14,039 nt of DNA from Gammaproteobacteria bacterium (GTDB taxonomy: Bacteria; Pseudomonadota; Gammaproteobacteria; HTCC5015). Under the pieces are notes generated by a model. The model was not told where the DNA came from. It saw only the letters and a list, made by a program, of their open reading frames with translations, and ran no database searches. The stretch spans positions 1 to 14,039 of the forward strand of contig JAHDBX010000001.1 of NCBI GenBank assembly GCA_020630145.1, written 5' to 3'. Each line of letters opens with the position of its first letter. Positions within the stretch are counted from its first letter, which is position 1. A program made the translations under genes and the position numbers. Shown piece after piece: positions 34 to 10,296 of this stretch.

Positions 34-498
34 CTAAATGTTAACCGTTAAGGCTGCACCAATAGCGCCAATGCAGGTTAATGTGGGTGTACCTAGTAGT
101 AAAGTCAGTATTAATGCATATAAGCCATTTGTCGGTAGGCTATAAAATAGTGATAGTAAGGGCGCGAGCAATATAATAGGCAGGCTTGCAATTAGCCAAT
201 GTGCGATGAGTTTTGCGTAAACCAGTAAGTGCAGGCTGGCTGGGCTACATAATAGAAGGTCTAAAAAGCCTGTTTCGGCATCGTCGTTGAATAAACTACC
301 CAAGGATAATAAAGCCGATAGCAATGCGGTTACCCAGACGACGCCTGGGGCAATTGCACTAAGTTGGTTGGGCCCATAGCCAATACCAAAAGGGAAAAGT
401 ACCAGTACCAGTATAAAAAACAAAACGGCGTTAATGACTTTCGATGGATTGCGAAAAGCTAAAAGTAAGTCGCGTTGTAAAATACTCGTAAAAGGCAT
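34..498 (-). CDS. ccmB: Haem exporter membrane subunit CcmB, apparently frameshifted near its middle
   Basis: This is the membrane subunit of the CcmABC(D) transporter, which delivers haem for cytochrome c maturation (System I). The 154 visible residues match the CcmB family: an N-terminal basic/aromatic segment, then FPFGIGYGPNQL, IAPGVVWVTALL, LFNDDAETGFLDLLL and LLLGTPTL in the usual order. Family members are about 220 residues long, but this frame stops (TAG then TAA) just after ALTVNI. The next bases towards the window edge encode SNVLLALLILP in the adjacent frame, which is what CcmB normally has there, so a frameshift lies at about 34-45. The gene starts two bases after the ccmA stop and is probably translationally coupled to it. 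The frameshift could be a true mutation or a sequence error; the remaining third lies outside the window. Family identity is secure, intactness is not. Confidence 0.88.
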   Translation of the reverse strand: MPFTSILQRDLLLAFRNPSKVINAVLFFILVLVLFPFGIGYGPNQLSAIAPGVVWVTALLSALLSLGSLFNDDAETGFLDLLLCSPASLHLLVYAKLIAHWLIASLPIILLAPLLSLFYSLPTNGLYALILTLLLGTPTLTCIGAIGAALTVNI

Positions 499-500
499 AG

Positions 501-1136
501 TTATTTTTGTAAATGAATTTTTTTAACGCCGGCATAGGAGTCTAATGCGGAATCCTGATGGCTGGCAAATATTAATAAGCCTTGCTTATTTAAGTGTTCT
601 GTAAAAATAGTATCTAGTATTTCAATACCTAGGCGGTCTAGAGCGGTGTAAGGTTCGTCTAGCAGCCACAGTGGTGTATCGCTTAGTAGTAACTGGGCAA
701 GTGCTATGCGACGTTGCTGCCCAGCAGATAGGGTGCCGGCCATTTCTTCTTCAAAGCCTAGTAATTCAACCTGCTCTAAGGCCTTGTCGATACTTTGAAT
801 GGTGAGCTTTTTACCACGTGCCTGCATCATAAACTGACAGTTTTCACGTGGACTAAGTTGTTTATTAACGCCGGCAGCATGGCCGACAAAACAAAAATTA
901 GCGGCATAAGCTTGTCTGCTACTTTTAATATCCTTGCCTTGATAGCTAATGACACCGCTTTCAGGTTCGGCTAAACCGGCAAGAATACGTAATAAAGACG
1001 TTTTACCACTGCCATTGGCTCCCACAATGTGCAGGCCTTCGCTGGACTTCAATGAGAAGTTTATGTCAGAGAACAGTAAGCGATCACCGCGTTCGCAGCT
1101 GAGTGATTGGCTTTGTAGGGTATATGTATTCGTCAT
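501..1136 (-). CDS. ccmA: Cytochrome c biogenesis ATP-binding protein CcmA
   Basis: This is the ATPase of the Ccm haem transporter, on the cytoplasmic face of the membrane. The 211-residue protein has a complete ABC ATPase set: Walker A GANGSGKT at residues 39-46, signature LSAGQ at 136-140, Walker B LWLLDEP with D160/E161, and the switch His at 193 (ASHQ). The reading frame is open further upstream to 1232, but I chose the ATG at 1136 (MTNTYTL) because it gives the usual family length of about 205-210 residues and the upstream codons resemble no CcmA sequence. No strong ribosome binding site is visible. ccmB follows after two bases. In most gammaproteobacteria ccmC and others come next, which would be beyond the left edge. 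Confidence 0.95.
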   Translation of the reverse strand: MTNTYTLQSQSLSCERGDRLLFSDINFSLKSSEGLHIVGANGSGKTSLLRILAGLAEPESGVISYQGKDIKSSRQAYAANFCFVGHAAGVNKQLSPRENCQFMMQARGKKLTIQSIDKALEQVELLGFEEEMAGTLSAGQQRRIALAQLLLSDTPLWLLDEPYTALDRLGIEILDTIFTEHLNKQGLLIFASHQDSALDSYAGVKKIHLQK

Positions 1137-1191
1137 TATGTCTATCGTTTTGAGTTGCCTTGATTTTAACGCGAATTCTTCTCTAAAAGTG

Positions 1192-1240
1192 ATAGCATTA
1201 GCTATTATTGACATAATTAATGTATAAATCATAGCATTAG
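1192..1240. repeat. Direct repeat ATAGCATTAG in a divergent promoter region
   Basis: The ten-base word ATAGCATTAG occurs at 1192-1201 and again at 1231-1240, with starts 39 bp apart. The first copy is also part of a small inverted repeat, ATAGC-ATTA-GCTAT (1192-1205). The second copy overlaps the candidate -10 box of the rightward promoter. Both copies lie between ccmA and the DUF1499 gene, so they could be paired operator sites, though a chance repeat in AT-rich DNA is possible. Confidence 0.4.
1208..1237 (+). promoter_or_regulatory. Candidate sigma-70 promoter for the DUF1499 gene
   Basis: A perfect -35 box TTGACA lies at 1208-1213. With an 18-bp spacer, TAGCAT (1232-1237) matches the -10 consensus at four of six positions. 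The predicted transcript would begin around 1244, about 18 bases before the ATG at 1262. The -35 is strong, the -10 only fair. Confidence 0.4.
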
Positions 1241-1741: not shown

Positions 1742-2076
1742 GTCTGTCGCACTAATTTAGGGCTTTATATCTTCTTGTAAAATCAATTTTCTCTGCACTT
1801 TGTTTGAGCGGCTTGCATAAATAGTAGTGCATAGTAAAACAGAGCAATATTTTTCTGTGCACCAGCACTGATCAATATTTGATTTTTTGCACCAAAGAAA
1901 ATCATAAACATTTCAAAATGTAATCAAAAACTTTTTTTCATTACAAATTTCATTTTTGGCATTTAATTTGCAACTGTATATTTTGTTGAGAATTAATTTT
2001 GCGCTATGCACTATTTAGAAGCGCGTAAATAATTTACTGATGACCTTTAAAACACAAGGTATAGGCAAAAAAAACA
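1742..2076 (+). promoter_or_regulatory. Non-coding regulatory region upstream of the redox operon
   Basis: This 335-base AT-rich stretch has no credible gene. It holds the sigma-54 promoter at 1956-1972 and several TGCAC-type words: TGCACT at 1794-1799, the reverse form AGTGCA at 1826-1831, TGCACCA at 1858-1864 and TGCACCA again at 1888-1894. The last two start exactly 30 bp apart, about three helical turns, so they face the same side of the DNA. A perfect 13-bp inverted repeat ATCAA-TAT-TTGAT (1871-1883) lies between them. The words resemble NtrC half-sites (TGCACCA), and their position 65-165 bp upstream of the promoter is usual for sigma-54 activators. A further TGCACT is at 2007-2012 in the predicted leader. 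I saw no GT-N7-AC pair typical of NorR among the GT words I checked at about 1800-1870. Confidence 0.6.
1956..1972 (+). promoter_or_regulatory. Sigma-54 (-24/-12) promoter of the redox operon
   Basis: The element reads TTGGCATTTAATTTGCA. GG at 1958-1959 and GC at 1970-1971 are separated by exactly ten bases, and both TGGCA and TTGCA halves match the RpoN consensus apart from C to T after TGGCA. Transcription should begin near 1983, giving a leader of about 94 bases before the GTG start at 2077. Such promoters need an ATP-driven activator bound upstream. Confidence 0.8.
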
Positions 2077-4086
2077 GTGGCAACAAATGCAAATAAATCT
2101 GAAACAACAGTAGGGCTTTATCAGCCTAATACTGCTGGCCGCATTGTGGTTGTTGGTAGTGGCCCGGCAGGTGTTCGTTTTGTGAATGAAGTATTAAAAC
2201 GAAGACCGAATGCTCAAATAACGGTTTTCAATAATGAACCATTTCAACCGTATAACCGCGTTCAGCTTTCAGCGTTATTAGCCGGTGATGTTCGTTTAGA
2301 AGATGTATTTTTAAAATTGCCTGATGAGACGAAACATAAATATTTTTCTCATATTATTTGCAAAGTAGAATCTATTGATACAGACAATAAAAGTATCCTT
2401 GACGCAAAAGGTAATACGCATTACTACGATAAGTTAATACTGGCAACAGGTTCGCGTGCACATACGCCTAATCTCAATGGCGTTAACAATAAAGGTGTTT
2501 ATACCTTCCGTAATTTAAAAGATACCGAGTCACTTTATGCGCGAGTATCAAGCGCAAGGCATATCGTTGTTGCTGGCGGTGGATTGCTAGGTATAGAAGC
2601 GGCTCGTGCACTGTCGCGAGACAATACAGACGTTACCTTAATTCAACAAGGCTCACACTTAATGAACAGGCAGCTAGACAGTTATGCGGCTGCTTTATTG
2701 ACAGAAAAAATAGAAGCACTTGGTATAAGAGTCATCGTAAATACGGGCTTAAGTACGATACATAGCGATGATCGTGTAAAGGCTGTAACAACAAGAAAGA
2801 AAGAATATATAGAGTGTGACACGGTACTGTTGTGTGCAGGTATATCGCCAAATATTGAAATGGCACGTGCCGCGCATATTAAAGTCAATAAAGGTATTGT
2901 AGTTAATGATCAATTGGAGACATCTGCGAATGATGTTTATGCTATTGGTGAATGTAGTGAGCATAACGGCAAAACATATGGCTTAGTTAGTCCGGGTTAC
3001 GAGCAAGCAGCCATAGCTGCAGATGTAGTCTGTGGTGGGCAGGCTTATTATAGTGGTTCGGTGCCTATTAGCCGTTTAAAAATTGTTAATGAAACAGTTT
3101 GTAGCATGGGTGAGGTTACAGACTACCCTGACAGGCCAAGACAAAAGGAAATTGTATTCAAAAATGATAAAGAGAATATATATCGAAAAATAGTTCTACA
3201 TAAGAACCGGTTGATCGGAGCAACAGGTTTTGGTGATTGGGCTGAAGTACGCCGCATAGAAGAAGCCTATAAACAGAAGCGACTAATTTTTCCTTGGCAG
3301 GAATGGCTGTTTGCATTTACAGGACGTCTATGGTTTCAAGGTGAGTCTAATCGTGTTTCACAATGGCCTGCATCTTCTATCATTTGTCAGTGTAATAATA
3401 TTTCTCATGGTGAAATTGTTGCTGCCATAGATAATGGTTCTAACAGCATGCAAGTTATTGGTGATAAAACCTCGGCAGGTACTGTATGTGGTTCTTGTAA
3501 GCCTTTATTAGAACAGTTGCTTGGTGATTCAGGCCAGCGCACAAAGGAAACAACATGGGTACCTGTTTTAGTCAGTAGTTCTTTGGCGGTTTTGTTAGCC
3601 ACGTTTATTGTTTTAATGCCAGGCATAGCTGTTTCAGAAACAGTGCAAGCGCCTGCATTGTTAGAAAACATTTGGAACGATAAGTTTTGGAAGCAGTTTA
3701 CCGGTTTTAGTTTATTAGCTATGTCTGTGTTGGGGTTGCTCATGTCCTTGCGCAAACGTATAAAGAATAAGAATTTAAGTAAGACACTCGGAGATTTTGC
3801 ATACTGGCGACTACTACATGTAGTGCTAGGTGTGTTTTGTATTGCGACATTGGTTCTGCATACAGGTATGCACCTAGGTCAAAATTTGAATCAAATGTTA
3901 ATGATTAACTTTCTATTAGTCATTTTATTAGGCGCATTTACAGGCGCTGTATTTTCACTGAGTCATCAACTAAGTGCAAATGCAGCGCTAAAACTTAAAC
4001 AGTTCTGGTCATGGGCGCATATTGTTGTTACATGGCCCTTACCCATTTTATTAAGTGTACATATTTTAACGGTTTACTATTACTAA
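2077..4086 (+). CDS. NirB-like FAD/NAD(P)H oxidoreductase fused to a 2Fe-2S domain and a di-haem-b membrane domain
   Basis: The 669-residue protein has three parts. Residues 20-430 form a pyridine nucleotide-disulphide oxidoreductase fold of the NirB/rubredoxin-reductase type: FAD-binding GSGPAG (27-32), NAD(P)-binding GGGLLG (167-172), and the second FAD motif in YAIGECSEHNGK. Next is a BFD-like 2Fe-2S domain with C437-x-C439 and C471-x2-C474. In NirB, sirohaem nitrite reductase domains follow; here they are absent. Instead there are five predicted membrane helices (about 495-518, 540-558, 578-600, 608-632, 645-669). Helices 3 and 5 each carry His pairs spaced H-x13-H (H581/H595 and H648/H662), the pattern that binds two b haems in ferric reductases and cytochrome b. 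The basic loop RKRIKNK after helix 2 suits a cytoplasmic N-terminus. Inferred role: moving electrons between cytoplasmic NAD(P)H and the periplasmic cytochromes encoded next. The GTG start has AGG 11 bases upstream. Confidence 0.85.
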   Translation: MATNANKSETTVGLYQPNTAGRIVVVGSGPAGVRFVNEVLKRRPNAQITVFNNEPFQPYNRVQLSALLAGDVRLEDVFLKLPDETKHKYFSHIICKVESIDTDNKSILDAKGNTHYYDKLILATGSRAHTPNLNGVNNKGVYTFRNLKDTESLYARVSSARHIVVAGGGLLGIEAARALSRDNTDVTLIQQGSHLMNRQLDSYAAALLTEKIEALGIRVIVNTGLSTIHSDDRVKAVTTRKKEYIECDTVLLCAGISPNIEMARAAHIKVNKGIVVNDQLETSANDVYAIGECSEHNGKTYGLVSPGYEQAAIAADVVCGGQAYYSGSVPISRLKIVNETVCSMGEVTDYPDRPRQKEIVFKNDKENIYRKIVLHKNRLIGATGFGDWAEVRRIEEAYKQKRLIFPWQEWLFAFTGRLWFQGESNRVSQWPASSIICQCNNISHGEIVAAIDNGSNSMQVIGDKTSAGTVCGSCKPLLEQLLGDSGQRTKETTWVPVLVSSSLAVLLATFIVLMPGIAVSETVQAPALLENIWNDKFWKQFTGFSLLAMSVLGLLMSLRKRIKNKNLSKTLGDFAYWRLLHVVLGVFCIATLVLHTGMHLGQNLNQMLMINFLLVILLGAFTGAVFSLSHQLSANAALKLKQFWSWAHIVVTWPLPILLSVHILTVYYY

Positions 4087-4103
4087 TTACCCTAAAGATA
4101 ACG

Positions 4104-5417
4104 ATGAAAAAAATAATTTGGGGTGTGTGGATACTATTAACTTTTCTGTTAGCAGGATATTTTGGTTATAAAATGTTTTTGGCAAATAACAAAACTGAAT
4201 TTTTAATTGGTGATGCAACACATGGGCATCATCAAATTGAATTAGCCTGTGAGACCTGTCATACAGATGCCTTTGGTGGTGGTGAAGTTCTGCAAAATGC
4301 CTGCGTGGATTGTCACAAAGATGATTTGAATGAGTCGCAAGATTCACATCCGGCAAAAAAATTTACAGACCCTCGTAATGCTGATTTGCTTGAAACGCTT
4401 GATGCACGTTACTGCGTAAGTTGTCATACCGAACATCAAAAAGAACAAACACGAGAAATGGGCGTGACCTTGCCTGGTGATTATTGCTATCACTGCCATG
4501 TAGATATAGGTGACGAACGCCCTAGCCATAAAGATCTGGCTTTTGATAGTTGTGCTACAGCGGGCTGTCATAATTATCATGATAACCGTGCTTTATATGA
4601 GAGCTTTTTAACCCAGCATGTTGATAAAGAGTGGTTGAGTGATAATGCAAGAATTAAAGAAGCCGATTTCGCGACGTGGTTAAGCCCTACTGATAATAAG
4701 CAATCTGCATTTAAAGAAAAAATACAAGCTCACCCTGATATAGCATCTGAGCATTTTTCACATGCGCATGGTAAAGCTGGTATTAGCTGTGGTGCCTGTC
4801 ATAGTCAAGAGCAAGAATGGCTTGATAAACCAGGTTTGGCACAATGTGCAAGTTGCCATGAAAATGAAAGCCAAGGCTTTGTAGAAGGCAAGCATGGAAT
4901 GCGTCAATCTGAGAAATTATCTAAGGTTTTGTCACCATTAACACCTGCTGATGCTGCGCCGGGTCTGGCTTTTCATCAGAGTGCTATGAATATAGAGCAA
5001 GGTTGTAATGCTTGTCATAGTAGCCATAGCTTCGATACGAAAAAAGCGGCGGCTGAAAGTTGTTTAGTTTGCCACGCAGATGAGCACTCGATGGCATTTG
5101 ATACCTCGCCTCATGGCGTGCTGTGGGAAAAAGAGTTAGCTGGTGATATTGCACCGGGCGAGGGTGTGAGTTGTGCAACATGCCATATGCCACGTGTTGA
5201 AGTTAAGGAAGGTGAAAAAGTAGTTATGCGCGTTGAACATAACCAAAACTGGAACTTAAGACCGAATGAAAAAATGATACGGCCTGTGTGCATGAGCTGC
5301 CACAGTTTAGCATTTTCGATTGATGCTTTAGCAGATAAAAAGCTGATTCGAAATAACTTCAATGGAAAACCTGAAGTGCATATTGAGTCTATGGATTGGG
5401 CAATTAAACGAAAGTAA
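4104..5417 (+). CDS. Membrane-anchored undecahaem cytochrome c (cytochrome c3/HAO-like multihaem family)
   Basis: The 437-residue protein has a single N-terminal hydrophobic helix (about residues 5-26) and a periplasmic part with eleven haem c attachment sites. Ten are CxxCH, beginning at C49, C67, C104, C128, C229, C248, C301, C320, C357 and C396. One is the rarer CX4CH form, CATAGCH at C150. All bases were read directly. Sites cluster as 49-150 and 229-396 with a haem-free spacer between, which suggests two haem modules. I chose the ATG at 4104 rather than 4011: it lies 17 bases after the previous gene and gives a normal anchor, whereas 4011 overlaps that gene. The many extra His residues can serve as second axial ligands. 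The likely role is electron transfer from the upstream membrane reductase, or a reductase active site itself; no catalytic residue is identifiable by eye. Confidence 0.9.
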   Translation: MKKIIWGVWILLTFLLAGYFGYKMFLANNKTEFLIGDATHGHHQIELACETCHTDAFGGGEVLQNACVDCHKDDLNESQDSHPAKKFTDPRNADLLETLDARYCVSCHTEHQKEQTREMGVTLPGDYCYHCHVDIGDERPSHKDLAFDSCATAGCHNYHDNRALYESFLTQHVDKEWLSDNARIKEADFATWLSPTDNKQSAFKEKIQAHPDIASEHFSHAHGKAGISCGACHSQEQEWLDKPGLAQCASCHENESQGFVEGKHGMRQSEKLSKVLSPLTPADAAPGLAFHQSAMNIEQGCNACHSSHSFDTKKAAAESCLVCHADEHSMAFDTSPHGVLWEKELAGDIAPGEGVSCATCHMPRVEVKEGEKVVMRVEHNQNWNLRPNEKMIRPVCMSCHSLAFSIDALADKKLIRNNFNGKPEVHIESMDWAIKRK

Positions 5418-5443
5418 ATGATAAATTTAAAGAGGTAAATGTT

Positions 5444-6019
5444 ATGAAGAAAATTACTCTGGTAACAGCATTACTGTTATCCAGCATTTTAGGTTTAACC
5501 GCTTGTGGCTCTAAAGAAGAAACGGTTGGTATCGAGCCTAAATTATATACTGACTCGCTTTTTGCAGTGATGAAGGCGGATCGTACGAATTATACCAAGC
5601 TTATTATTCAACGCCTTGGGCCAAATGGGGCGGGTGTCATTAAGCCGGATGAAAAGTGGCAAGACCATGATAACGGTGCCTTATTGCCTGCACAAATGTT
5701 TAGAGCTGGCGCTGAGGCTGTAAGTGAAATGACAGATGATTTTACTTATTCGCTGCAGTCGATTTGGCCAATTAATTCACAAAACAAACCTAAAACACCA
5801 ATGGAAAAAGAAGGCCTGCAATATATCGCAGATAACCCAGGTGAAAATTTTTATGGTACAGAAGAATTAGGTGGCAAGAAGTACTTCACGGGTGTTTATG
5901 CTGATGTGGCGGTTGCCCAAGCATGTGTAACTTGCCATAACGAGCATAAAGATTCACCAAGGACAGACTTTAAACTAGGTGAGGTTATGGGCGGTGTAGT
6001 TATCCGTGTGCCTCTTTAA
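5444..6019 (+). CDS. DUF3365 (Tll0287-like) haem c lipoprotein
   Basis: This 191-residue protein has a lipoprotein signal ending in LTAC (lipid-attached C21), so it is probably anchored in a membrane facing the periplasm. The body matches the DUF3365/Tll0287-like family, a PAS-like fold with one covalent haem. The haem site is CVTCH at C161, followed by the typical ending NEHKDSPRTDFKLGEVMGG, with GGVVIRV close to the C-terminus. A strong ribosome binding site (AAAGAGGTAA) precedes the ATG, and the gap from the previous gene is 26 bases. Members of this family act as electron carriers or as sensor domains; here there is no kinase or signalling module, so a carrier or ligand-binding role is more likely. 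Confidence 0.88.
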   Translation: MKKITLVTALLLSSILGLTACGSKEETVGIEPKLYTDSLFAVMKADRTNYTKLIIQRLGPNGAGVIKPDEKWQDHDNGALLPAQMFRAGAEAVSEMTDDFTYSLQSIWPINSQNKPKTPMEKEGLQYIADNPGENFYGTEELGGKKYFTGVYADVAVAQACVTCHNEHKDSPRTDFKLGEVMGGVVIRVPL

Positions 6020-6033
6020 ATTAACGAAAACTG

Positions 6034-6063
6034 AAAAGTATGATGCTTATGCATCATACTTTT
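6034..6063 (+). other. Perfect hairpin inside the operon (processing site or partial terminator)
   Basis: Thirteen-base arms (6034-6046 and 6051-6063) pair perfectly around the loop TTAT. The stem starts with four A and ends with four T, and the ribosome binding site GAGG of the next cytochrome gene follows at once. The U-run is short, so it may only reduce read-through or protect the upstream message end, setting different expression levels within the operon. Confidence 0.7.
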
Positions 6064-6075
6064 GAGGCTTAAATT

Positions 6076-6408
6076 ATGGTAAAGCAAATTTTATTTTTTC
6101 TAAGTCTATTTTTCATTGTGGCATGTGGCGATGAAAAAGAGCCTGAAAAAAAGATAGTTAAAGAGCCTACGAAGGGTGAATTGATTGTAAAGCAAAATTG
6201 TAAGGTATGTCATGCACAAGGTCTTAATGGTGCGCCAATAATTGGTAATAAAAAAATGTGGGGACCACGTTTAGTTCAGGGAGAAAAAACCTTAGTTACG
6301 CATGCGATTAATGGTTATGAATTGATGCCTGCTAAGGGTGGCAATACAGAATTAACGGACGATGAAATTGCTTTAGCAGTTAAATATTTTATTTCAAAAG
6401 TTGAATAA
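6076..6408 (+). CDS. Small class I (c5-like) cytochrome c lipoprotein
   Basis: The 110-residue protein has a lipoprotein signal ending FIVAC (C17), then a charged Glu/Lys linker and one mono-haem cytochrome c domain. The haem site is CKVCH (C42, C45, H46). M84 in YELMPAKGG is the probable second axial ligand, and ELTDDEIALAVKYFI forms the usual last helix. Length and motif order fit the cytochrome c5/c551-5 group. It likely shuttles electrons between the multihaem cytochrome or DUF3365 protein and a partner such as a terminal oxidase or the bc1 complex. GAGG lies 9 bases before the ATG, directly after the hairpin at 6034-6063. Confidence 0.9.
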   Translation: MVKQILFFLSLFFIVACGDEKEPEKKIVKEPTKGELIVKQNCKVCHAQGLNGAPIIGNKKMWGPRLVQGEKTLVTHAINGYELMPAKGGNTELTDDEIALAVKYFISKVE

Positions 6409-6435
6409 TTTTTATATATCTCACAGGAGAATATT

Positions 6436-6789
6436 ATGTCTGTTTATGAAAGTATAGGTGGTGCAGCAGCAGTCGATGCAGCAGTAGATATTTTTTATCG
6501 TAAAGTATTGTCAGATGATCGTATTAGTCATTTTTTTGATGATGTTGATATGGATGGTATGCGCGCTAAACAAAAATCGTTTTTAACGATGGCCTTTGGT
6601 GGACCTAATGAGTATACCGGCAAAGATATGCGAGAAGCGCATAAGCATATGAACTTAACGGAAGAACATTTTACGGCAGTAGCCGAAGCACTTGTCGGCA
6701 CATTAAATGAGCTTGAGGTACCGCAAGAGCATATTGACGAAATTGTTAATATTGCCGTTAGTGTTAAAGATGATGTACTCAATGTGTAG
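6436..6789 (+). CDS. glbN: Group I truncated haemoglobin (trHbN type)
   Basis: The 117-residue protein has no signal and is therefore cytoplasmic. It shows the group I pattern: YESIGG at the start, F20-Y21 with Y21 at the B10 position that contacts bound ligand, AKQKSFL with Q46 on the E helix, FGGPNEYTGKDM, then the proximal haem ligand H69 in MREAHKHM. Group I proteins of this kind bind O2 and NO, and some turn NO plus O2 into nitrate when supplied with electrons. The next gene, six bases downstream, encodes a suitable electron donor. The ribosome binding site AGGAGA is strong. Confidence 0.93.
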   Translation: MSVYESIGGAAAVDAAVDIFYRKVLSDDRISHFFDDVDMDGMRAKQKSFLTMAFGGPNEYTGKDMREAHKHMNLTEEHFTAVAEALVGTLNELEVPQEHIDEIVNIAVSVKDDVLNV

Positions 6790-6795
6790 GTTATT

Positions 6796-7785
6796 ATGGT
6801 AGCGATTAATTTTACTTCCGAGCAGGAAGCTAATCAACAAGTTGAGCTTGAGCAAGGTGAAACAGTTCTGGATGGACTATTACGCGCTGGGCACGATATT
6901 CCATATGGATGTCGTGCCGGTGTTTGCCAGAGCTGCATCATGCAATGTAGTAGCAAGAATATGCCTAGTCAGGCGCAACAGGGTTTAAAGCCAGCACAAA
7001 AAGAGTTAGGTTATTTTTTAGCATGTAACTGTTTGCCCTCCGAAATAATGGATGTATCAACCGCGGTTTCTAAAAGTGAAAAAGTCAGTGCTAAAATATT
7101 GGAAAAAACGTATCTAAATAATAATGTGCTACGTTTGCGAATAGATAAGGTTTTTGATTATAAGCCGGGTCAATTTTGTACTTTATGGAAAAATAAAACC
7201 GTTTCACGTTGTTATTCATTAGCTAGCATTCCACAAAAAGAAAATTTTTTAGAGTTTCATATTAAAAAGCTAGATAAAGGCCAGTTTAGTAAATGGGCGC
7301 ATAATGATTTGCAAGTTGGTGATAGCATTGGTGTACAGGGGCCTCTGGGAGAGTGCTTTTATAGTTACACTGATATTAGCAAGCCACTTTTCTTAGCCGG
7401 TATTGGTACAGGTTTGTCGCCATTGTATGGTGTTTTACGCGATGCTTTAGAGCGAGGCCATAATGGTAATATTAACCTTGTTTTAGGCGCAAAAAATGCT
7501 GACGACTTTTATTTAGTGGATGACTTACTTGCATTAGAAAGGCGGTATATTCAGTTGAATGTACATTTTGTTGCGCAAACACTCCTTAAGTCTGATGATA
7601 ATAAGCATATTGTCGAAGCTGACATTTATGAGTATATACACCAGGTTGTTCCTGATTTTAAAAATCAGCGAGTATTTTTATGTGGAGCCGATAGCTTTGT
7701 GAAAAAAATGAAACGACGATGTTTTATGGCCGGTGCGAATATGCCTGATATTTCAGCTGATGCATTTTTAGCGTTTAACCAATAA
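6796..7785 (+). CDS. Ferredoxin-FAD-NAD(P)H reductase (2Fe-2S plus ferredoxin-NADP reductase-like)
   Basis: This 329-residue protein belongs to the oxygenase-reductase family. An N-terminal plant-type ferredoxin domain has C39-x4-C44-x2-C47 and C77 as 2Fe-2S ligands. The FAD-binding domain has RCYSLAS (the RxYS flavin motif), and the NAD(P)-binding domain has FLAGIGTGLSPLYG and the closing block VFLCGADSF. Similar reductases feed oxygenases (phenol, toluene, CDP-sugar types), but no oxygenase is present here. The gene starts six bases after the truncated haemoglobin stop, which points to the haemoglobin as its partner. The pair contains the parts of flavohaemoglobin (globin plus FAD/NAD reductase) with an added iron-sulphur domain. 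The ribosome binding site is weak (TAGG), so translational coupling is likely. The stop codon lies within a perfect palindrome. Confidence 0.9.
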   Translation: MVAINFTSEQEANQQVELEQGETVLDGLLRAGHDIPYGCRAGVCQSCIMQCSSKNMPSQAQQGLKPAQKELGYFLACNCLPSEIMDVSTAVSKSEKVSAKILEKTYLNNNVLRLRIDKVFDYKPGQFCTLWKNKTVSRCYSLASIPQKENFLEFHIKKLDKGQFSKWAHNDLQVGDSIGVQGPLGECFYSYTDISKPLFLAGIGTGLSPLYGVLRDALERGHNGNINLVLGAKNADDFYLVDDLLALERRYIQLNVHFVAQTLLKSDDNKHIVEADIYEYIHQVVPDFKNQRVFLCGADSFVKKMKRRCFMAGANMPDISADAFLAFNQ

Positions 7786-7802
7786 AATTTATTGGTTAAA
7801 CG
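7772..7802. terminator. Palindromic bidirectional terminator between convergent genes
   Basis: A perfect 31-bp palindrome (15-base arms around a central A) covers the last codons and stop of the reductase gene and ends 12 bp before the end of the convergent kinase gene. It can fold as a strong hairpin on either transcript. No long U-run follows on the plus side, so it may act as a 3'-end stabiliser as much as an intrinsic terminator. Confidence 0.65.
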
Positions 7803-7813
7803 TATATAATTTC

Positions 7814-9100
7814 TTATGGCAGGGTGATATGAATGTTTGTTCCTACCCCTATGCTGCTTTCTATCTCAAGTTTACCTTGATGTGCTTCTATAATTGCTTT
7901 GCACAAATATAAGCCTAAACCATAACCACCCGTTTGTCTTTGTCTAGCAGAGTCAACTCTATAGAATGGGTCAGTTAACTTAGCAATATTATCTTTAGCT
8001 ATACCTTCACCATCATCACTAATGCATAAGGTAATACCATCACTATTATGCAGTGCTTTAACCTTCACTTTTTCTTTTTTATAACGTAAAGCGTTGTCAA
8101 TTAAGTTCTTTAAAACCAACTTTATACGTTTAATGTCGGCAGATATTTTTATATCATTTTCTAGGGTTGATGTGATAATACCGTCTTTAGAAAAGTGTTC
8201 GTCTATAACATTCTTAATTAAAGTGTTTATGCTAAATACCGTTTTATCTAGTGTTTGGTGGTGGGTGTTTAAGCGTTCTGTTTCAAGAATATCAGCAATC
8301 AATTTTTCCATTTCTACAATGTCACTTTTAAGCTGTTTCTTATAAACGCTATCGTCAAGCATTTCTAAAGCAACATTGCTGCGTGTTAGCGGGGTGCGCA
8401 GCTCGTGACTTACTGCCAGTAATAACTGTTGTTTGGCATCTAACATTTTTTGGATATCATCAGCCATATTATTGATATCTTTGCTTAATAAGCCCAGTTC
8501 ATCTTTACGTTGAATATTTATTTTATGGTCGAGTTCACCAGAGCCTATACGTTTAACGCTGTTTTGAATCGTTAATATAGGCGCGAATAACTTGCGCGTG
8601 GCAAAATATAAGAGCGCTAAAATAAGTAGCAAGAAAAATAAGGGTTTAAACGCTCTAAAACTTTTACGTTCGCTGATTAAGTCAGTTGTATTAAATAAGT
8701 AATAGATATCATTGGATTGCATAACCATAAAGTGTTGCTCATCATCAAATGCGCCACCATAGGAGATGCCATCTTTATATTTATGTAATTTAATTTCAAT
8801 TTCATCCAGGTCAATAATATTATTGCCTGATGACCAATACTGCTGGTTCTGAATAATACTGATTTCAATGCCTAGGTCTTTAGCGAGTTTTGACGCCCGT
8901 TCATAGTTAATAGGCATGCCAATATCGCTACGAATATATTCCAGGTATTTTGCTATATGTGCTTTGCCTGTTTGATCATATAAGTTTTCTAAAGTATGGC
9001 GGATACCACTACCCACTATTGCCATCAGTAATAGCGTAAATAAAAAGAATAAAATAACGAGTTTGGTTGATAAGCTATGCCAAGCAATTTTATATTTCAT
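7814..9100 (-). CDS. cpxA: CpxA-like sensor histidine kinase
   Basis: The 428-residue inner-membrane kinase has a first helix at about residues 13-33, a periplasmic sensor of about 120 residues, a second helix (FFLLLILALLYFA), a HAMP linker, and a dimerisation domain with phospho-accepting H232 in AVSHELRTPLTR. The ATP-binding domain has the N box (LKNLIDNALRY), G1 (DDGEGIA) and G2 (GGYGLGLYL). It would sense envelope conditions and phosphorylate the regulator encoded upstream. I chose the ATG at 9100: it comes one base after the regulator stop (TAG-C-ATG), with AAGG upstream as ribosome binding site. A longer frame to 9160 lies inside the regulator gene. The assignment to CpxA rests on motifs plus the CpxP-CpxR-CpxA gene order. 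Confidence 0.88.
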   Translation of the reverse strand: MKYKIAWHSLSTKLVILFFLFTLLLMAIVGSGIRHTLENLYDQTGKAHIAKYLEYIRSDIGMPINYERASKLAKDLGIEISIIQNQQYWSSGNNIIDLDEIEIKLHKYKDGISYGGAFDDEQHFMVMQSNDIYYLFNTTDLISERKSFRAFKPLFFLLLILALLYFATRKLFAPILTIQNSVKRIGSGELDHKINIQRKDELGLLSKDINNMADDIQKMLDAKQQLLLAVSHELRTPLTRSNVALEMLDDSVYKKQLKSDIVEMEKLIADILETERLNTHHQTLDKTVFSINTLIKNVIDEHFSKDGIITSTLENDIKISADIKRIKLVLKNLIDNALRYKKEKVKVKALHNSDGITLCISDDGEGIAKDNIAKLTDPFYRVDSARQRQTGGYGLGLYLCKAIIEAHQGKLEIESSIGVGTNIHITLP

Positions 9101-9101
9101 G

Positions 9102-9773
9102 CTAATTTGCCTTAGCCGTAAAGATATATCCTTTCCCACGGATAGTTTTAATAATATCAAGCGGTTTTAGTTTTTGGCGCAAACGGCTCACAAGTATATC
9201 GACTGAGCGTGAATAGATATCGGCATCTATACCTTTTATTTTATTTAAGATGTCATCGCGGCTAAAGGTTTTCTGTGGTGAACGTGCAAACATTTCCAGT
9301 AACTGATATTCCATACTGCTTAATGTGATTTCTGTATCTTGAATATAAGCTTGCATACTTTCTGTGTCGATAGATAGTTCAGCAAAGTTCATTTTCTTTT
9401 GTGTGGCGGTATTGTCACTCCGTTTTAAAATGCTTTGTATACGCGCCAGTAGTTCACGAGGTTCAAACGGTTTAGGCAAGTAGTCATCTGCTCCTAGTTC
9501 TAAGCCAACTATACGGTCCATGACTTCGCCACGAGCGGTTAGCATAATAATAGGTATATCACTGGTTTTGCGAATTTGTTTGCACACCTGGAAGCCATCT
9601 TGCTCAGGTAGCATGACATCGAGGATAACGAGTTGGTATTCGCCTGATTCGAGTAATTTTAAACCTTGACTAGGTCTGATAGCATTATCGCAAGATATTT
9701 CTACGCTGGTAAAAAAAGCTTGCAGCAGCTCGCCAAGTTTTTCGTCGTCATCAATTAAGAGTATTTTATGCAT
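9102..9773 (-). CDS. cpxR: CpxR-like OmpR-family response regulator
   Basis: This 223-residue transcription factor has a receiver domain with acidic residues D8-D10, phospho-acceptor D52 (ILDVMLPEQDG), T79 and K101 (LPKPFEP), then an OmpR/PhoB winged helix at about residues 130-223 ending in TIRGKGYIF. The stretch MLTARGEVMDRIVGLELGADDYLPKPF is close to CpxR of enterobacteria as I know it. It is one base from the kinase gene. The target is probably the tandem GTAAC array at 10354-10394, since CpxR recognises GTAAA-N5-GTAAA. Confidence 0.9.
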   Translation of the reverse strand: MHKILLIDDDEKLGELLQAFFTSVEISCDNAIRPSQGLKLLESGEYQLVILDVMLPEQDGFQVCKQIRKTSDIPIIMLTARGEVMDRIVGLELGADDYLPKPFEPRELLARIQSILKRSDNTATQKKMNFAELSIDTESMQAYIQDTEITLSSMEYQLLEMFARSPQKTFSRDDILNKIKGIDADIYSRSVDILVSRLRQKLKPLDIIKTIRGKGYIFTAKAN

Positions 9774-9789
9774 AATTTCTACTAGTAAA

Positions 9790-9810
9790 GGCGTAGAACT
9801 ATTCTACGCC
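9790..9810. other. Hairpin between the CpxP-like and CpxR-like genes
   Basis: Nine-base perfect arms GGCGTAGAA (9790-9798) and TTCTACGCC (9802-9810) flank a three-base loop. On the minus strand it lies in the 64-base gap after the CpxP-like gene and is followed by TTTACTAG, a poor U-run. It could partly end transcription, so that the periplasmic protein is made in larger amounts than the regulator and kinase. Confidence 0.6.
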
Positions 9811-9837
9811 TATATTCACTTTAATTTAATTATTAAA

Positions 9838-10296
9838 TTAGTCTAAATCATGGTGGTGTTCTCGTTTATGCTTGATATGTCTTTCGATTTTGTGGCGAAT
9901 TTTAGCTTGTTGCTCAACATTCAGGCTGTCGTAAAAGTCAGCAAGTGCGTTCACAACACTGGGCGCTTCAGCTTTAACGGCATCTGCCTTATTGTTTATG
10001 TGGTTTAGAATAGCTGTTCGGTCTAATGTATCTTCGCTTAAGATATCGCCTATATCTTTATGAATATCGCTACGAGATTCATGCATAGACTTGTGAGCCT
10101 GCAATATGCTGTCTTTGGCTATGTTGAGCATACTGACTTGAGCATCGTCTAAATCGAGTTTTTTGCTTACCTTTTTGATTATATGCTGAGCATGTTCTTC
10201 TGGGCTGCTGTGGTAGCGATTATACGCAAATACCGAGCCAGTAAAGGCAACAATGCTGGCGACTATAATAACGATAACTTTCTTTTTGTGTTTCAT
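9838..10296 (-). CDS. CpxP/Spy-like periplasmic stress protein
   Basis: The 152-residue protein starts with a basic and hydrophobic signal (KHKKK then a hydrophobic stretch to about residue 24, ending SVFA), so it is probably periplasmic. The mature part is helical and charged, with two degenerate LTxxQ-type motifs, LDDAQ (49-53) and LNVEQ (125-129), the hallmark of the Spy/CpxP family. The C-terminus is rich in His and basic residues (HIKHKREHHHDLD), which may bind metal ions. CpxP binds the sensor domain of CpxA and keeps it quiet, and Spy acts as a chaperone. The gene lies directly before the CpxR/CpxA-like pair, in the cpxP-R-A order on one strand. AGGAG precedes the ATG. Confidence 0.85.
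   Translation of the reverse strand: MKHKKKVIVIIVASIVAFTGSVFAYNRYHSSPEEHAQHIIKKVSKKLDLDDAQVSMLNIAKDSILQAHKSMHESRSDIHKDIGDILSEDTLDRTAILNHINNKADAVKAEAPSVVNALADFYDSLNVEQQAKIRHKIERHIKHKREHHHDLD

Follow-up and report, generated by a model that had tools for sequence, protein, structure and literature searches.

A conserved operon uniting a NirB-like membrane reductase, an undecahaem cytochrome and a globin, and its possible part in nitrate assimilation

Organisation of the locus

The first 14,039 nucleotides of a contig (C95, GenBank JAHDBX010000001.1) from the draft genome of a gammaproteobacterium of the HTCC5015 lineage (assembly GCA_020630145.1; 1.89 Mb, 73% complete), hereafter the window, contain six genes on the forward strand at positions 2077–7785, which encode a NirB-like membrane reductase (P1), an undecahaem cytochrome c (P2), two mono-haem proteins (P3 and P4), a truncated haemoglobin (trHb) and a flavin reductase (Fdr) (Table 1). 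The gene set and its order, their conservation, the promoter sequence and the neighbouring genes in related genomes were read directly from the genomes, and they lead to the tentative suggestion that the operon is an accessory of nitrate and nitrite assimilation.

The genes are separated by gaps of 17, 26, 56, 27 and 6 bases, in agreement with a first-pass annotation, made by a model from the sequence and its open reading frames (ORFs), which had described a close-set, single-strand operon of six genes with 13 c haems in its periplasmic proteins; the recount gave 11 motifs in P2 (10 CXXCH and one CX4CH) and one each in P3 and P4. The most likely start of P2 is at 4104 rather than at the first in-frame ATG (4011). 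The hairpin at the operon end has the longest stem among the 17 terminator-like sites of the window (11.7 sites in shuffled sequences), and the hairpin between P3 and P4 falls where relatives keep or drop P4.

Table 1. Features of the operon and of its upstream region (positions in the window)
Feature	Position	Strand	Description
Candidate NtrC-binding region	1749..1873	+	GCAC-N7-GTGC dyads: one mismatch at 1749 and 1795, two mismatches at 1859
Sigma-54 (-24/-12) promoter	1957..1972	+	TGGCATTTAATTTGCA; 0 mismatches; score 14 of 15
P1	2077..4086	+	669 aa; NAD(P)H-binding FAD domain, BFD-type 2Fe-2S domain and C-terminal membrane domain; GTG start uncertain
P2	4104..5417	+	437 aa; undecahaem (11-haem) cytochrome c with N-terminal membrane anchor
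P3	5444..6019	+	191 aa; Tll0287/DUF3365 (sCache_heme) mono-haem protein, lipobox-like N-terminus, without axial Cys
P3/P4 hairpin	6034..6063		13 pairs
P4	6076..6408	+	110 aa; small cbb3-type mono-haem cytochrome c, lipobox-like N-terminus
trHb	6436..6789	+	117 aa; group-1 truncated haemoglobin
Fdr	6796..7785	+	329 aa; 2Fe-2S/FAD/NAD reductase
Terminator-like hairpin	7771..7803	+	Operon end; 15-pair stem

Conservation of the gene set

A scan for P2 over one genome of each of 84,980 species yielded 403 relatives, of which the best 80 were kept, so that this set is biased to close kin; a second sample comprised 18 loci from 17 genomes of an even draw of 276 genomes of the class. Gene order was read from a six-frame profile map of the loci. 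P1, P2 and P3 follow each other in this order in 77 of the 80 best loci and in 16 of the 18 class-sample loci, with median gaps of 43 bases (P1–P2) and 46 bases (P2–P3); the three exceptions in the former set are L081, which starts inside the cluster, L078, with P2 in two pieces, and L065, where no P3 was seen. The full six-gene order of the window recurs in 22/80 loci, and 36/80 have P1-P2-P3, with or without P4, followed by a globin of the flavohaemoglobin type. Conserved co-occurrence of the families in this order, the check suggested with the first-pass annotation, was found, and the cluster is neither confined to the window nor dispersed among unrelated gene orders.

The gene set is carried by many bacteria, marine ones and others, among them Alcanivorax, Marinobacter, Neptuniibacter, Porticoccus, Pseudomaricurvus, Neiella, Hahella and Pseudomonas benzenivorans, as well as beta- and alphaproteobacteria; the search for the operon on plasmids gave no match. 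Genome repeats (L086, L090, L093, L095, L098), together with a group of short re-fetches and loci without the P genes (L001, L002, L084, L085, L109, L110), were dropped from the counts of gene order, conserved residues, globins, promoter sites, dyads and nitrate neighbours. ORF clusters 11, 17 and 30 were rejected as neighbour genes, being by position antisense frames of the globin, P3 and P2.

Promoter region and regulation

A sigma-54 site without mismatches precedes P1. Taken within the window alone, such a match is at chance level (two sites with at most one mismatch, 1.9 expected); its significance follows from the comparison with other loci, where sites scoring at least 13 of 15 lie upstream of P1 in 54/88 loci and in 11 of 491 control upstream regions. 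The P1 regions spanned -350 to +100 of the open frame and the control regions, which belong to other genes from a subset of the loci, -400 to +50 of the start of ORFs of at least 200 residues. With repeats of genomes included, the site occurs in 58/94 loci compared with 105/2100 random windows. The shared sigma-54 promoter proposed in the first-pass annotation is in line with these counts. The 88-locus count and the 53-locus count given below also omit a second copy of the cluster (L003), and only short re-fetches and loci without the P genes were left out of the 94-locus count.

In the stretch preceding the sigma-54 site, the dyad with the highest enrichment score was that of NtrC (GCAC-N7-GTGC), exact in 11/53 loci (0.4 expected) and present with at most one mismatch in 28/53 (4.5 expected); dyads with spacings of 5, 6, 8 and 9 were near background. 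The signal is weaker over all 88 loci: 14/88 compared with 7/491 controls for the exact dyad, and 40/88 compared with 94/491 controls when one mismatch is allowed. No exact dyad occurs in the window; its candidate NtrC-binding region contains imperfect dyads, and the motif TGCACCA is found at 1858 and also at 1888, just beyond this region. The NorR dyad GTCA-N3-TGAC, with at most one mismatch, was found in 1/53 loci against 4.2 expected, and a NorR-controlled, NO-induced (NO, nitric oxide) operon was rejected, since this dyad is not enriched. The consensus sequences of sigma-54, NtrC and NorR sites were those of general knowledge. Such motifs place the operon in a putative NtrC/sigma-54 nitrogen-limitation regulon and not in an NO-response regulon.

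Association with nitrate assimilation

Genes for NrtA, NrtB, NirB or full-length NasT lie near the core in 29/80 best and 10/18 class-sample loci by strict cuts, which were set after seeing the data, and in 28/80 and 7/18 by the same cuts when NasT is left out; a looser count gave 32/80 and 10/18. The score cuts excluded the apparent nitrate neighbours of L006 and L072, which are receiver-domain-only matches to the NasT profile, and of L041, a match of the same kind accompanied by a 42-bit NrtA match. The 'NasA' of L079 and L090 was also rejected, as it is apparently the start of NapA, with a signal peptide and, by eye, a NapF-like ORF before that of L090. Representatives of NrtB and NrtC were identified by NCBIfam (NrtB with 166 of 209 bits, below the cut-off), and NasT by its ANTAR domain. 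One locus (L107) has the order globin-P1-P2-P3-NrtA-B-C-NirB-D-NasA on one strand, and another (L042) the order NrtB-NrtC-NirB-NirD-NasA-P1-P2-P3-globin. A porin family (Alginate_exp, PF13372) is located between NrtABC and the core in L011, L015, L024, L043, L050 and others; it is possibly an outer-membrane nitrate channel.

Among the 276 class genomes, the host of the window included, 23 carry P2. NirB above the cut-off was found in 19/23 carriers and in 115/253 other genomes (Fisher p = 8e-4), NasA with at least 640 bits in 15/23 and 80/253 (p = 2e-3), and either of them in 21/23 and 121/253 (p = 4e-5), where kinship makes all three p values overstate the association; the 640-bit cut was chosen after the scores were seen, at most three candidates were scored per genome, and the lists of carriers were transferred by hand. 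The host genome has nirB-nirD-flavoprotein-nasA on another contig (C45), so the operon would add to the cytoplasmic pathway and not replace it; P1–P3 were rejected as a NirB replacement in view of NirB in 19/23 carriers and in the host.

The first-pass annotation had proposed a two-compartment system of defence or respiration for NO, nitrite or hydroxylamine. This role does not stand as it was worded, because the NrtABC, NasT, NirBD and NasA neighbours, together with the sigma-54 and NtrC sites, shift the reading to nitrogen assimilation under limitation.

P1, a NirB-like reductase fused to a membrane domain

P1 contains Pyr_redox_2 and Fer2_BFD domains and ends in a hydrophobic stretch of some five helices. 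Residues 23–487 match positions 1–470 of the 794 positions of the NirB profile TIGR02374 with 384 bits (cut-off 578), and P1 is not a NirB, as the siroheme/4Fe-4S C-terminal half of the profile was not matched; the N-terminal half is common to both proteins, whereas the siroheme/4Fe-4S half is replaced in P1 by a membrane domain with four conserved histidines. These residues (His581, His595, His648 and His662) are conserved in at least 97% of 91 P1 proteins, which suggests that the membrane domain holds two b haems, one near each membrane face, judging from the order of the helices.

The soluble half of P1 is 32% identical to the flavoprotein adjoining NasA in the host genome, and this likeness bears on another explanation, where P1 is mainly a cytoplasmic donor of NasA and the globin, similar to Flp/NasC, and the periplasmic haems merely sense the redox state or NO. 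Such a role would recall the Flp of Bradyrhizobium, which, in the accessible part of a published study (PMC4724949), is proposed to feed NasC and Bjgb; moreover, Fdr was not seen in the loci with a flavohaemoglobin-type globin, and the nas cluster of L042 shows no separate flavoprotein. However, the host already has a flavoprotein between NirD and NasA, which weakens the case for P1 as the only donor of NasA; the membrane histidines and the 11 motifs of P2 are retained, needless as they would be for a cytoplasmic donor, and NasA with at least 640 bits is wanting in 8/23 carriers, although in three of these (G013, G041 and G109) a molybdopterin enzyme beside NirB gave a weaker match. This explanation seems quite improbable.

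P2, an undecahaem cytochrome

A domain match assigns P2 to the class III/c7-type multihaem cytochromes. Eleven haem motifs were counted in 97/99 P2 proteins, and besides these motifs 11 further histidines are conserved at 96% or more. All 11 haems could, by this count, be bis-His ligated, as expected of a pure wire; yet NrfA would likewise give a one-to-one count, so the numbers of motifs and histidines do not separate a wire from an enzyme.

P2 may itself be an enzyme that, in the service of assimilation, reduces nitrite or hydroxylamine to ammonium in the periplasm with electrons from NAD(P)H, in other words an aerobic and quinone-independent counterpart of Nrf. Profile searches revealed distant similarity between parts of P2 and octahaem nitrite reductases (ONR), NrfA and the multihaem protein 4qo5 (best E between 5e-9 and 1e-7; E ≤ 0.01 for 21 distinct sequences), and, among the 120 relatives listed, three are named in their source by a label that starts with 'nitrite reductase (cytochrome; am...' and five have PF02335, the NrfA family. 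In the superfamily of NrfA, octahaem nitrite reductase and HAO, one haem is open at its distal site and catalytic residues are conserved; in P2, H328 (conserved in 99 P2 proteins), with D326 (invariant in 25 aligned), stands before a conserved HG, and this resembles the distal pocket region of the superfamily. At the same time, the catalytic haem of NrfA is bound by CXXCK with a lysine ligand, and CXXCK was found in 0/99 P2 proteins; no tyrosine is conserved above 80% in the C-terminal haem region of P2, and NrfA models score 20–21 bits against cut-offs of 595–692. The match of 11 motifs by 11 other histidines also tells against an enzyme, even if one open site would still be compatible with it, and carriers possessing cytoplasmic NirB have no obvious need of a second nitrite reductase. 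P2 differs from NrfA and ONR in its 11 haems and inner-membrane anchor as well, and it would be fed by NAD(P)H, whereas they are fed by quinol. An enzymatic P2 is, in our opinion, rather unlikely. Assignment to DmsE-type decahaem cytochromes (TIGR03508) failed too, with 39 bits against a cut-off of 192 and a match limited to residues 317–401.

P3 and P4

P3 matches PF11845 (E = 2.7e-20) and belongs by sequence to the sCache_heme (Tll0287/DUF3365) family; comparison with solved structures gave no sequence match at E ≤ 1. The cysteine and histidine residues of CXXCH are conserved in 97/97 P3 proteins, and outside this motif no cysteine is found beyond residue 40 in any of them, which sets P3 apart from the stand-alone redox-type members of the family: those have an axial cysteine, according to the accessible part of PMC12889525, and P3 is stand-alone but lacks it.

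The domain matched by P4 is the cytochrome c domain of cbb3 oxidases. P4 is present in 48/80 loci; in 32/80 none was seen on the strand of the core. Lipobox-like N-termini occur in 73/97 P3 and 33/58 P4 proteins. These features would fit a bypass, in which surplus NAD(P)H electrons would be passed to small cytochromes of the periplasm or outer membrane (P4), and from these to either an outer-membrane conduit or a terminal oxidase, so that the redox state is balanced during nitrate assimilation; a porin family often lies beside the core, and undecahaem cytochromes are known from outer-membrane conduits, the electron-uptake complex Uet sharing with P2 an 11-haem cytochrome of the cell envelope (PMC10734462, accessible part). 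Several points weaken the bypass, namely the 32 loci mentioned above, the porin mostly accompanying NrtABC, and the globins and the Tll0287 protein, which it leaves unexplained. Furthermore, no tetrahaem, trihaem or NHL protein was identified among the 15 families recurring in at least eight loci (two of them without a Pfam match), which do include the porin. We regard the bypass as unlikely. Uet-type electron uptake is weakened by the same absence of identified partner cytochromes: in the accessible text, Uet is accompanied by a porin, NHL proteins and cytochromes with three or four haems (PMC10734462), and the undecahaem complexes described there and in the accessible parts of PMC5371394 and PMC13264449 have partners other than those of P2, namely P1, P3 and mostly a globin; this comparison with Uet covered the gene partners.

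Globins and their reductase

The haemoglobin of the window gave a Bac_globin match and is a group-1 truncated haemoglobin, matching solved group-1 structures (GlbN, HbN; best E 1.7e-41); its Tyr21, presumably the B10 tyrosine, is invariant among eight aligned proteins. Unlike GlbN and HbN, it is paired inside the operon with a reductase of Fer2, FAD and NAD domains. A set of 100 loci (the 80 best, the 18 of the class sample, the window and L003) includes 29 with trHb, 49 with a single-domain globin of the flavohaemoglobin type, 20 with neither and two with hemerythrin. Fdr was found in 25/29 trHb loci, 0/49 loci with the flavohaemoglobin-type globin and 0/22 others, and is likely to be the electron donor of trHb; the haemoglobin/reductase pair recognised in the first-pass annotation is thereby upheld. 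The two globin types occur together in one locus only (L066), and the P2 tree, a quick one with support values of the SH-like approximate likelihood ratio test (SH-aLRT) only and 31/96 inner branches open, indicates seven changes between them over 76 single-type rows, so that the types replace each other. That globins of two subfamilies occupy this operon suggests that an O2- or NO-binding protein is what selection keeps there.

The window's own contig carries a divergent second copy of P1-P2-P3 (L003:11309-16344, equal to G000:C95:25308-30343), which adjoins a hemerythrin-domain gene (PF01814) instead of a globin; the same pairing is seen in L104 (G226), and the P2 proteins of the two loci are sisters on the tree (SH-aLRT 85). 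Near this copy (L003:6984-10054), downstream of ABC transporter genes, a gene for a di-haem-oxidoreductase-like protein (DHOR match) is followed by a 539-aa ORF in the same direction.

Proposed function

The domain families of P1–P4, the conserved histidines of P1 and the haem motifs of P2 agree with the electron-path architecture outlined in the first-pass annotation, and we infer from families and conserved ligands a path NAD(P)H - FAD - 2Fe-2S - b - b - 11 c. P1 would oxidise cytoplasmic NAD(P)H and pass the electrons through FAD, the BFD-type 2Fe-2S centre and two b haems, coordinated by His581/His648 on the cytoplasmic side and His595/His662 on the periplasmic side, to the 11 c haems of the membrane-anchored P2, which would feed P3 and, where present, P4. 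The haem c of P3, without an axial cysteine, is possibly open to NO. Judged from gene context, the substrate may be NO, nitrite or hydroxylamine, and NO is favoured as the compound that the periplasmic arm reduces or binds; the most likely task of this arm would be to reduce NO, and perhaps also nitrite or hydroxylamine, entering the periplasm in the course of nitrate assimilation, and the cytoplasmic globin with its reductase would convert NO to nitrate. An NtrC/sigma-54-controlled accessory of nitrate and nitrite assimilation, sending NAD(P)H electrons to periplasmic haems while a globin handles cytoplasmic NO, is the reading that we put forward, tentatively and with somewhat less than even confidence. 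The wider proposal is more doubtful: that the operon represents a widespread and previously undescribed periplasmic arm of assimilatory nitrate metabolism, where P2 alone or via P3 reduces NO, nitrite or hydroxylamine in a two-compartment detoxification and recovery under nitrogen hunger.

Several observations weigh against the proposed accessory role. By the strict count, 51/80 loci have no nitrate gene, and 14/80 have no globin, some of them on short contigs. A role confined to NO defence is made less likely by control through NtrC instead of an NO sensor. In two genomes with the core, G008 and G162, neither NirB nor NasA was matched at the cuts applied; a 561-aa protein of G008 gave two matches to NIR_SIR and may be a sulfite or a nitrite reductase. 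G162 (1.7 Mb, 98% complete) has the core twice (L101 and L108) and no globin in the fetched stretches, and its only NIR_SIR proteins are encoded by two adjacent ORFs (421 and 358 aa), DsrAB-like by size and adjacency; the core must be useful in G162 without known nitrate assimilation. In addition, the invariant Met85 of P3 may be the sixth haem ligand; a methionine ligand is known in a Geobacter relative. Finally, the findings reported in the accessible part of PMC12889525 cut both ways. A signalling sCache_heme protein without the axial cysteine holds NO tightly and releases it slowly, which speaks for the proposed role; against it, a stand-alone member with the axial cysteine binds NO weakly, and its Cys-to-Ala variant still binds weakly and loses NO rapidly; because of this variant, loss of the cysteine need not give tight NO binding.

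No published description of the gene set was found in the open-access literature (subscription papers were mostly outside the search), the accessible part of PMC9230427 has nothing on it, and the earlier remark that no named system with this set was known is consistent with that outcome. The nearest published analogue is narK-bjgb-flp-nasC of Bradyrhizobium japonicum, which would work alike in the cytoplasm. According to the accessible part of PMC4724949, its globin and flavoprotein detoxify NO arising from nitrate assimilation; the unit combines a single-domain haemoglobin and an NAD(P)H flavoprotein, is controlled by NasT, includes NarK and NasC and adjoins nitrate ABC transporter genes, whereas membrane b haems, a multihaem P2, a Tll0287 protein or a periplasmic arm are not part of it as described there. 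The operon of the window is not of this type: it contains the globin, and NasA and the Flp-like gene lie on contig C45.

In the usual picture of bacterial nitrate assimilation, all steps that follow uptake take place in the cytoplasm. If the proposed accessory role is true, a second compartment, with 12 or 13 c haems of the periplasm receiving electrons from NAD(P)H, would be added to this pathway in Alcanivorax, Marinobacter, Neptuniibacter, Porticoccus and other genera, and the uncharacterised P1 fusion, the undecahaem P2, the Cys-less P3 and P4 would gain a common, testable task and a predicted timing of expression.

Neighbouring genes

Upstream of the operon and divergent from it, the window contains ccmA and ccmB (34-1232, reverse strand), genes of cytochrome c maturation. 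On the other side (7814-10296, reverse strand), a histidine kinase and a response regulator lie beside an LTXXQ protein, an arrangement that recalls a Cpx-like envelope stress set.

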